Of a stretch of 64,000 bases of DNA, positions 35,152-37,712 are shown one piece after another. The stretch's first letter is position 1; each line of letters begins with the position of its first letter. The notes beneath the pieces are model-generated. The model made no database searches, had not been told where the DNA came from, and saw only the letters and a program-made list of their open reading frames with translations. Origin of the DNA: Thermoplasmata archaeon (lineage in GTDB: Archaea; Thermoplasmatota; Thermoplasmata; Methanomassiliicoccales; Methanomethylophilaceae). The position numbers and the translations under genes were made by a program. Where the stretch lies: assembly GCA_015063245.1 (NCBI GenBank), contig SUSV01000002.1, forward strand, positions 124,001 through 188,000, read 5' to 3'.

Positions 35152-36984
35152 TTATTCATTTTGTGCGGGCATCCAAGAGGGATGGTCGCGTTTGGTCCTG
35201 CAGTGCTCGCATAGAGGGCGCGGTGCTTCGGGCTTCCAGGTGTTGGCCCATAGCAGGGAGGCTGCCAGAAGTATGACTATGAACGATCCCATGTTGTGGA
35301 TGATGGCTCCCTCGATAGGTCCTATGGTGCCGATCATGCCGAATATGACCCCTATGATATTGATGGTCATCGCCAGAGCGAGTCCGATGTATATCGTCTT
35401 CACGGAGCGTCTGCACAGCCTTACCAGGCCCGGGACCTTCCCGATGTCATCGTTCATGAACACGATGTCGGAGGATCCCACGGTCAGGTCGTTTCCGATC
35501 GAGCCCATGCTGATCCCTACAGTAGCTCTCTTGAGGGAGGGAGCATCATTCATCCCGTCGCCTATCATGCAGGCGTGCCCCTTCTCCTCGAAGTAGGTCA
35601 CGGTCTTGAGCTTGGTCTCAGGCAGGCATTCCCAAACGATGTTGTCCATCCCGAGGGTCTGAGCGACATGGCCTCCCACCTTCTGGTTGTCGCCGGTCAG
35701 CATGACCGTCCTCACTCCGAGATGGCAGAGGTCCTCGATGGCCGCCGGGGATTCCTCCTTGACGGTGTCCTCGAGCCCGATGTATCCGACGGTGGTCCCA
35801 TCGATGCCGACGAGCACGGTGGTGCATGAGCAGTCCTCGACCGCCTCTAGCACCGATTCGAGCCCTGCGGGGCATTCGGATTCCATCAGGAGCCGGTTGC
35901 CCGCTGCGATGGCGTATCCGTCGACGATCCCGGTCACTCCCTGTCCGGGGATGTTCCGGAAGTCCTTCACGTTGCCGATAGGGGTATGATTGGACGCGAT
36001 GGCCTTGCCGAGCGGGTGCTCCGAGCGGGTCTCGATGGCCGAGACCATCTGCTCGATCCTCTTCCCATCCAGTTCGGTGTTGACGGCGGTGAATCCCAAG
36101 GATGATATCTTCCCGGTTGTGAGGGTGCCGGTCTTGTCGAAAAGTACTGAATCGACTCTGGCCATACCCTCGATCGCCGATGTATCCCTGAGGAGTATCC
36201 CGTTCCTGGCCATGTTGCCTGCGGCTGCCATTATGCCGGTGGGGGTGGCCAGCACGAAGGCGCAGGGGCAGAAGACGACCATGATGGTCAGGGCGCGATA
36301 GATGTCCTCGGTCAGGAGATATGTGATAGCAGTGATGACAATCGCTCCCAGGAGGATCCATTTCGCCCATCTGTCGGCCGCGTTGACGATCCTGCTCTTT
36401 CCTACGTCCGCATTCTCCATGAGCCTGCTCATGCGGGCGATGGTGCTCTCGGAATCGACTTTGGCGACCTCCACATCGATGGAACCGTAGAGGTTGGTGG
36501 TCCCTGCGAACACGCCGTCTCCTATGGAGACATCCGCAGGCATGGATTCTCCGGTTATGATCGATTTGTCGACGGATGAATCGCCGAGGATAACGGTGCC
36601 GTCGAGGGGTATTGTCTCTCCGGGGAAGATGCGGATCCTGTCGCCCACCTTGATGTCGCCGACAGATGTCTGGACCACTTCGTTCCCGACTACAAGATTG
36701 GCTTTGTCCACCTTGAGTTTGCCCAGCGCATCCATTCCGGATCTAGCCTGATTGGTGACTATGACCTCGAGAAGCTCTCCTATGGACATGATTATAGCGA
36801 TCTCTGCCGCAGCAACATATTCCTCGAGGATGAGGCATCCTATGAGGGCCATGACCACGAGCGCTTCCGCCGCGATCTCCTTCTTCAGTGTGTCCTTGAT
36901 GACTTCCAGGAGAATCGGTGCACCGCATACCACCACAGGTATGACTGCAAGGAAACCGAGCCCGTCCACCAGGACCGAGATCAC
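35152..36984 (-). CDS. Heavy-metal (probably copper) P1B-type ATPase
   Basis: 610 aa from the GTG at 36984. The actuator loop has TGES (about 144), the metal-transporting helix CPC (FCPCA, 239-241), the phosphorylation site DKTGTLT (about 283), a HP motif (SEHPLGKAI), TGDN and GDGMNDAP. There is no N-terminal metal-binding domain; a separate HMA protein is encoded nearby. The C terminus (CEHCRTKRD) may bind metal. The frame upstream stays open and codes a hydrophobic helix (VAVIVVSIALTVISVLV) back to a stop at 37075-37077 but has no ATG, GTG or TTG. A good ATG at 37034 preceded by GGAG is out of frame. The start is therefore unclear (CTG start, or an indel). CsoR operators lie directly upstream. 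Confidence 0.88.
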   Translation of the reverse strand: MISVLVDGLGFLAVIPVVVCGAPILLEVIKDTLKKEIAAEALVVMALIGCLILEEYVAAAEIAIIMSIGELLEVIVTNQARSGMDALGKLKVDKANLVVGNEVVQTSVGDIKVGDRIRIFPGETIPLDGTVILGDSSVDKSIITGESMPADVSIGDGVFAGTTNLYGSIDVEVAKVDSESTIARMSRLMENADVGKSRIVNAADRWAKWILLGAIVITAITYLLTEDIYRALTIMVVFCPCAFVLATPTGIMAAAGNMARNGILLRDTSAIEGMARVDSVLFDKTGTLTTGKISSLGFTAVNTELDGKRIEQMVSAIETRSEHPLGKAIASNHTPIGNVKDFRNIPGQGVTGIVDGYAIAAGNRLLMESECPAGLESVLEAVEDCSCTTVLVGIDGTTVGYIGLEDTVKEESPAAIEDLCHLGVRTVMLTGDNQKVGGHVAQTLGMDNIVWECLPETKLKTVTYFEEKGHACMIGDGMNDAPSLKRATVGISMGSIGNDLTVGSSDIVFMNDDIGKVPGLVRLCRRSVKTIYIGLALAMTINIIGVIFGMIGTIGPIEGAIIHNMGSFIVILLAASLLWANTWKPEAPRPLCEHCRTKRDHPSWMPAQNE

Positions 36985-37067
36985 GGTAAGCGCGATGGAG
37001 ACGACGATTACCGCAACCGGTATCCGCTCTTCATACAGAGTCTCCGCTAAAGTCAGATGATCACCTA

Positions 37068-37113
37068 ATACCCCCTAGGGGTATCAAGTATATAATATAC
37101 CCTATGGGGGTAT
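37068..37113 (-). promoter_or_regulatory. Twin CsoR-type operators flanking the TATA box of the P1B-ATPase
   Basis: ATACCCCCTAGGGGTAT (37068-37084) and ATACCCTATGGGGGTAT (37097-37113) are near-palindromes of the G-tract type bound by copper-sensing CsoR repressors. They flank an AT-rich TATA region (about 37085-37096), centres 29 bp apart. The second overlaps the csoR stop codon. Repressor bound to both would cover the ATPase promoter and release it when Cu(I) binds; this is inference from known CsoR systems. Confidence 0.75.
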
Positions 37114-37373
37114 CAAATCTTCGAGAACTGCCTGATGACCTCGGTGAACTCCTCGATGGTGGCATCCGCATCACCGTGCTCGATGCCTTCTCTTACGCAG
37201 TGGTGGATGTGACCCTCGAGAACGATCTGTCCGACCTTGTGTATGGCGCTCTTGATGGCATTGATCTGGACCATGATCTCCTCGCACGGCACGTCCTCAT
37301 CGATCATACGGTCGACTGCAGCTACTTGCCCGCTGATCTTCTTCAAGCGCTTGTGAAGGTTCTCCGAGTCCAT
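37113..37373 (-). CDS. csoR: CsoR-type copper-sensing transcriptional repressor
   Basis: 86 aa, all-helical DUF156 (CsoR/RcnR/FrmR) family. The Cu(I) ligand fingerprint Cys-His-Cys is present at C30, H55 and C59 with the spacing of known CsoR proteins (25 and 4 residues). The ATG at 37373 is preferred over 37385 since a TATA-like ATTATA at about 37402-37407 would place transcription start near 37380. It controls the ATPase just downstream, and perhaps the chaperone gene upstream, through G-tract operators. Confidence 0.88.
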   Translation of the reverse strand: MDSENLHKRLKKISGQVAAVDRMIDEDVPCEEIMVQINAIKSAIHKVGQIVLEGHIHHCVREGIEHGDADATIEEFTEVIRQFSKI

Positions 37374-37451
37374 ACACTCAATCATAATATCAGGTTGGAG
37401 GTATAATCTGACTATTATTTTAGAGTTTATAATAGCTCTAAAAAACTGATA

Positions 37452-37712
37452 TCAGCTGATGCGTTTGACTTTAACATCGCCCTGTGCCTTGGGAGCGGAT
37501 ACCATGACCTCGTTGGCGATCGCCTCTGCCTTGTCCTCGTCGCAGTCGATGATGAACCTCCCGTTTACCATGAGCGCAGCCCCGTTGACCCCGGGCTGCT
37601 TCTGGATATGGAGTTCCAGCTTGTCCGCGCATTCCTGACAGGTCAATCCGGTGACGAAGAAGAGCATCCTCATGCGGTCCGGATGGATGCCATGCGATAA
37701 AAGATGATTCAT
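37452..37712 (-). CDS. HMA-domain heavy-metal chaperone-like protein
   Basis: 86 aa from the ATG at 37712; shorter starts at 37673 and 37667 would remove the unusual MNHLLSHGIHPDR leader and leave a standard domain of about 70 aa. FFVTGLTCQECADKLELHI matches the HMA fold (GMxCxxC) with both metal-binding cysteines, although Met is Leu. It resembles CopZ/Atx1-like carriers that hand Cu(I) to P1B-ATPases. It lies upstream of csoR on the same strand, completing a copper module. Confidence 0.8.
   Translation of the reverse strand: MNHLLSHGIHPDRMRMLFFVTGLTCQECADKLELHIQKQPGVNGAALMVNGRFIIDCDEDKAEAIANEVMVSAPKAQGDVKVKRIS

Follow-up and report, generated by a model that had tools for sequence, protein, structure and literature searches.

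Described members of the CsoR/RcnR family include CsoR of S. lividans, InrS of Synechocystis and RcnR of E. coli. Excerpts of work on S. lividans report that CsoR was titrated with the duplex copZA1-GTA-up, which contains the same 17-mer as one of the two sites described below, operator A (PMC3902906). Excerpts of PMC7055735 give a Cys-His-Cys ligand triad to Cu(I) sensors and also to InrS, which senses Ni(II), and the accessible passages of Foster et al., 2014 (PMC4235346) hold second-shell residues to be better predictors of the metal than the Cys/His pattern, with a Tyr in the ‘A’ position of Cu(I) sensors. In the pumps, the Cu sites of A. fulgidus CopA include Tyr682 in TM7 and Met711 in TM8. 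No report of a CsoR-regulated archaeal promoter was found in the literature searched, most subscription journals lying outside its scope, and it is in general an open question how a transferred gene comes under regulation in a host that transcribes by quite different machinery.

Here we set beside these systems a locus in the window, a 64,000-nucleotide stretch of DNA from a Thermoplasmata archaeon of the Methanomethylophilaceae, a methanogen of gut type. The reading that we favor, at a probability of roughly three in four, is that a metal-released CsoR-family repressor acts on two operators that cage the promoter of an ATPase gene, in a unit of bacterial origin.

Results

Three genes follow one another on the minus strand: a small HMA-like gene (37452..37712; CopZ-like, with a CxxC motif, and at 21.3 bits just below the PF00403 gathering threshold of 24.8), csoR (37113..37385, minus; a CsoR/RcnR-family repressor of 90 aa, PF02583 E 1.3e-26) and a gene for a P1B-type heavy-metal ATPase (35152..37056, minus; TIGR01525, 476.5 bits). 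The small gene adjoins csoR in near relatives too. Between csoR and the ATPase gene lie two near-perfect palindromes, each with the TAC-N9-GTA form and the two G/C tracts of a type-2 CsoR operator. Operator A (37068..37084, ATACCCCCTAGGGGTAT) is promoter-proximal, between a TATA-like element and the predicted transcript start; operator B (37097..37113, ATACCCTATGGGGGTAT) is upstream of the TATA-like element, where it covers the BRE position and takes in the final base of the csoR stop. Start to start they are 29 bp apart, with 12 bp between them that read ATTATATACTTG on the minus strand and contain the TATA-box-like element TTATATAC (37088..37095, minus). An earlier note on this DNA had described two 17-bp near-palindromes 29 bp apart around a TATA box, which is correct to the base, with the TATA-like element read between them. 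It had also placed the second operator across the csoR stop codon; this holds for one base of the 17-bp operator B (stop TGA at 37115-37113), and the 15-bp TAC-N9-GTA core (37098-37112) lies clear of the stop.

The TATA box and the transcript start should be treated as predictions by eye, with the putative start bordering on operator A, near 37064-37067. A promoter consensus sought from the window's own upstream regions did not become clear, as there were too few clean ones. In 16 of 17 related loci, the TATA-like element closes with an ATAC or GTAC motif that stands 2-4 bp short of the downstream operator. Just 3' of operator A there is a Shine-Dalgarno-like GGTGAT (37060..37065, minus), and several relatives have GGTGAT or GGCGAT in the same place. 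No ATG, GTG or TTG occurs between the in-frame TAG and 36984 (window 37056-36984, minus), and CTG at 37056, which follows GGTGAT and aligns with the TTG or GTG starts of relatives, is the probable ATPase start. At this position locus L021 also has CTG and L039 has ATA; a weak start codon may be a conserved trait of the ATPase gene.

Judged by counts in related genomes, the operator pair is not a product of chance. Searched for as TACCCN5GGGTA-N6-20-TACCCN5GGGTA, the pair is present in 16 of the family's 102 genomes, once per genome and always within the window's genus, and a backwards control gave none in all 102. A csoR match (E 0.001 or better) is present in 39 of these genomes; they include all 16 with the pair, which lies 4-63 bp behind the csoR match, and none of the 63 genomes lacking csoR carries it (Fisher p 2e-8, not corrected for relatedness). 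One carrier, G053, is a single-contig genome, which makes contamination an unlikely cause of the pair. In the window's own 1.49-Mb assembly, exact TACCCNNNNGGGGTA gave three matches at two sites, operators A and B only. With one mismatch there were 18 matches, against 24 and 20 for the backwards control, so single imperfect operator sites carry no meaning.

A wider comparison used 98 csoR rows, 30 of them labelled archaeal, with repeats left out (11 archaeal, L044-L054; the bacterial L073; and L002, L014 and L127). A locus counts here as ‘linked’ if tblastn matches the window's ATPase no more than 700 bases behind csoR, a definition that is silent on other csoR targets. One row without an in-frame csoR stop (L042) was counted as unlinked. 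Two archaeal-titled rows, L083 and L112, both unlinked, were counted with the bacteria for linkage and for residues 18 and 22, and are absent from the operator-length, -35/-10 and shuffle counts, which cover linked loci only. The 65 csoR-ATPase loci hold 98 operators 3' of csoR, compared with 0.64 on average, and four at the most, in 200 dinucleotide shuffles. An ATPase is linked in 22 of the 30 archaeal rows, of which 17 have a strict pair, five have one strict operator and none lacks an operator; two of those five (L040 and L041) show a second copy that has a single defect. The eight unlinked archaeal rows were searched as well and have none. Centre-to-centre distances in the archaeal loci are 25 (eight loci), 26 (five), 27 (one), 29 (two) and 21 (one). 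The five loci with a single strict operator count against the favored reading, and so do the closest csoR genes (88% identical; in G054, G055 and G064), which have neither a linked ATPase nor the pair. Among named loci, the nearest come from Methanomethylophilaceae and other gut and rumen Thermoplasmata archaea. The earlier reading of the sites as CsoR-type operators that bracket an archaeal promoter gains from their match to known type-2 operators and from this conservation, and the pairing of operator and CsoR-family repressor is well supported.

Single operators elsewhere tell less. Exact ones occur, one or more each, in seven of nine csoR genomes, no more commonly than in backwards controls, which suggests that most are there by chance; we rejected a regulon beyond the ATPase promoter because single operators are no more frequent than the control. 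Two of their contexts stand out. A second intergenic site with an operator and a TATA-like element was seen at G000:C4:191-205 (L003), and also in L161, L165, L185 and L187. A short membrane-protein gene follows it in four relatives, one of which (G058) has no csoR match, and no open frame for such a protein was found after the site in the window's genome. L164:1501-1515 is a single operator in G063, a genome whose csoR is unlinked; it sits directly 5' of the gene for a ZntA-like ATPase that is rich in Cys at its N-terminus. L163 and L170 (G059 and G064) have a similar operator 5' of orthologous genes, GNAT acetyltransferase-like by eye, which may be chance.

The csoR product scores 93.3 bits against PF02583 (gathering 22.8), as expected of the CsoR/RcnR family, and its best solved relative is the CsoR 4m1p (E 2.5e-19), which we take to be a Geobacillus-type CsoR. 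Which signal it senses is less clear-cut. A Cu(I)-sensing CsoR that controls a copper exporter by the same repression mechanism is the rival that survives best, and the earlier note had indeed read the ligands as those of copper. The X-Y-Z triad is real (C34, H59 and C63, kept in 98 of 98 rows), and the ‘B’ position is Glu79 (ungapped alignment to InrS Glu98), the second-shell Glu of Cu(I)-sensing CsoR, with E in 36 and D in 34 of the 98 rows; the closeness to a solved CsoR, the adjoining HMA/CopZ-like gene and the occurrence of operator A's 17-mer in a bound variant of the S. lividans copper operator, as given in excerpts of that work, point the same way. Yet Ni(II)-sensing InrS has this triad too, and the ‘A’ position, where Cu(I) sensors have Tyr, is Pro33 in the window, Pro in 96 rows, Ala in two and Tyr in none; it is such second-shell residues that are the better predictors in the accessible passages of Foster et al., 2014. 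Of the 98 rows, 92 have an extra Cys, Cys4 in the window, close to the W position.

The pump also fits copper poorly. The linked ATPase scores 398.9 against TIGR01512 (Cd; cut-off 313.5) and 356.2 against TIGR01511 (Cu), below a cut-off of 397 that is not a clean substrate test, since L174, an ATPase of the same genome with HNxGS, passes it at 441.8. It has CPC in TM6; in TM7 an Ile aligns with Tyr682 of A. fulgidus CopA, and TM8 reads, by eye, AIIHNMGS, so that HNMGS stands in place of the CopA Met/Ser and the TM7 Tyr plus TM8 Met of a P1B-1 CopA are missing. HNxGS recurs in the bacterial rows for which the C-terminus was fetched, except L105. Four full-length ATPases in the genome exceed the heavy-metal cut-off. 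L173 is a canonical CopA (574 bits against the Cu cut-off) on a different contig, where no operator with up to one mismatch was found; L175 is ZntA-like, and L174 is a second HNxGS pump. The description of the linked pump as a copper ATPase is therefore not supported: it is below the Cu and above the Cd cut-off, lacks the TM7/TM8 Cu+ ligands and shares the genome with a separate, true CopA. A P1B-6/ferrosome pump (FezB) was considered as well; passages on such pumps offered no sequence motif for comparison, and the TM8-subclass literature did not point to one substrate. Copper as the settled effector is thus rejected on the ‘A’ position, the ATPase cut-offs, TM8 and the separate CopA. A Cu(I) sensor is less likely than not, though far from improbable; a metal other than copper is somewhat more likely than not, with a non-copper divalent ion somewhat more likely than Cu(I).

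The nearest relatives of the repressor outside the archaea are bacterial, mainly from Clostridia, with 60-71% identity among the matches listed. The bacterial set comprises at least 80 loci from one scan of genome contigs. Among the matches listed, the same finder gave 43 bacterial linked loci, 22 with a strict pair, 15 with one operator and six with none. Allowing no more than one mismatch, TTGACA-N16-18-TATAAT was found in 27 of 37 operator-bearing bacterial loci among the matches listed, and in none of the 20 main-clade archaeal loci or the two other archaeal ones. The best archaeal match, in the window and in L040, has two mismatches and is probably accidental. In the bacterial sequences examined, the first operator falls between the -35 and -10 boxes and the second comes after the -10. 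The earlier note had contrasted the archaeal site with bacterial ones, a contrast that is correct by half: the predicted promoter between the operators is TATA-like, but bacterial, mostly clostridial, relatives bracket their -10 box likewise. Thus, the arrangement was probably inherited, rather than made new for TATA/BRE.

A 14-bp operator core is the rule in bacteria (58 of 59 among the matches listed) and a 15-bp one in the main archaeal clade (36 of 37); the two archaeal loci from another genus share the 14 bp of bacteria. The spacers of archaeal and bacterial loci are more alike than in any of 1000 shuffled sets, a result that used 16 of 22 bacterial spacers (six of the eight long ones were left out) and that a shared AT-rich function could explain in part. 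One clostridial spacer with TATAAT (GTATAATATACATATAC, in L094 and L123) is two base changes from the archaeal spacer GTATTATATACACATAC (L038). Bacterial operator spacings fall into two groups among the matches listed, 14 loci near 25 bp (23-27) and eight near 35 bp (34-37), which are one helical turn apart; archaeal loci show no such split. In the repressor, residues 18 and 22 (window numbering) are S/A/Q/N and A/S/N in the main archaeal clade and mostly I/M and K/Q/R/N elsewhere, a split that coincides with the change from 14 to 15 bp. We rejected these two positions as a specificity switch, as a single event on the tree is no proof of altered specificity.

A CsoR tree was made from 98 rows and 91 columns, with a bootstrap that had not settled. 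In it the main archaeal clade, 27 rows, is a single group (98/96) nested among bacteria (99/88), L040 and L041 group with clostridial rows (98/95), and the starred branches demand that the archaeal label changed three times or more. A quick ATPase tree also places L040 and L041 inside a bacterial group; the main clade is not resolved in it, so that tree by itself shows no transfer for this clade. A search of 389 genomes of the phylum at E 1e-12 gave 17 matches, 15 in the window's family and two distant ones elsewhere. The csoR-operator-ATPase unit thus likely came from bacteria, in more than one transfer, the donor and the direction being inferred.

Discussion

On the reading that we favor, the repressor made from the upstream csoR would bind both type-2 operators. 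Operator B would fill the BRE/upstream face of the ATPase promoter, and operator A would take up the DNA between TATA and start; with repressor bound, TBP, TFB and RNA polymerase would have no room. Metal at C34-H59-C63, perhaps with Cys4, would then free the DNA, and the pump would be made. The sequences themselves show the operators, their pairing, linkage and conservation, the counterparts in bacteria and the missing -35 box; binding, repression, metal release and the position of the transcript start are proposed here by analogy with the family and from the geometry of the sites. The unit would have arrived from bacteria, mostly clostridial relatives, with its cage of two operators already in place. 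The AT-rich stretch that once held a bacterial -10 box would now be a TATA box, the -35 box having been lost. If clostridial and archaeal spacers can differ by two changes, one stretch could be read by sigma factor or by TBP with both repressor sites kept, and this is part of a fuller account that we hold tentatively, at slightly under even odds: the whole unit, operators included, crossed to archaea with its promoter converted rather than replaced, more than once in one archaeal family; one lineage then went from 14 to 15 bp; and the metal is not copper.

An inherited architecture might also be a relic of a bacterial promoter that no longer regulates anything in the archaeon, and some relatives have lost the ATPase or one operator. 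However, both operators are preserved through changes of spacer and spacing, the pair tracks csoR, and operator length is uniform in the archaeal clade although different from that in bacteria, which is not expected of unused relics; we consider a relic improbable. Still less probable is a CsoR homologue that senses persulfide or another small molecule, as excerpts on the family members CstR and TTHA1953 place them in sulfur chemistry, since the metal-site His59 is kept in every row and the controlled gene is a metal ATPase.

The locus is then a conserved repressor-operator system, ordinary in kind and unusual in its history. It lets promoters of the donor and of the recipient type, alike in their operators, be compared directly in vitro with one small repressor. 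It also carries a caution: the C-H-C triad alone is insufficient for the naming of CsoR-family genes and their adjoining pumps as ‘copper’ ones.

Comparison with known systems

The likeness to S. lividans CsoR/copZA1 is in the TAC-N9-GTA type-2 operator, down to the 17-mer of operator A within copZA1-GTA-up. S. lividans differs, as far as excerpts of that work go, in having a single site per promoter and a bacterial promoter (PMC3902906), and, by alignment, in the Tyr before the X Cys. Clostridial csoR-ATPase units (for example, L060, L061, L081, L094 and L123) share the order of csoR followed by an HNxGS ATPase, with two operators that bracket a core promoter element, and differ in their 14-bp cores and TTGACA/TATAAT promoters. 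An operator 5' of csoR is also present in 28 of 68 bacterial rows among the matches listed; none was found there in the window, so self-repression seems to have been lost. Synechocystis InrS resembles the window's repressor, by alignment, in the C-H-C triad, the Pro before the X Cys and the Glu in the ‘B’ position, and differs in the ‘C’ position, Glu in InrS and Thr here. Excerpts on InrS give His21 in the W position, where the window's clade has a nearby Cys instead, and nrsD rather than an ATPase as the regulated gene (PMC4235346, PMC7055735). E. coli RcnR, according to excerpts of PMC3902906, likewise has two operator sites in tandem at one promoter; unlike those here, they are type-1 sites with one long G tract, and in RcnR a His replaces the second Cys (PMC7055735).
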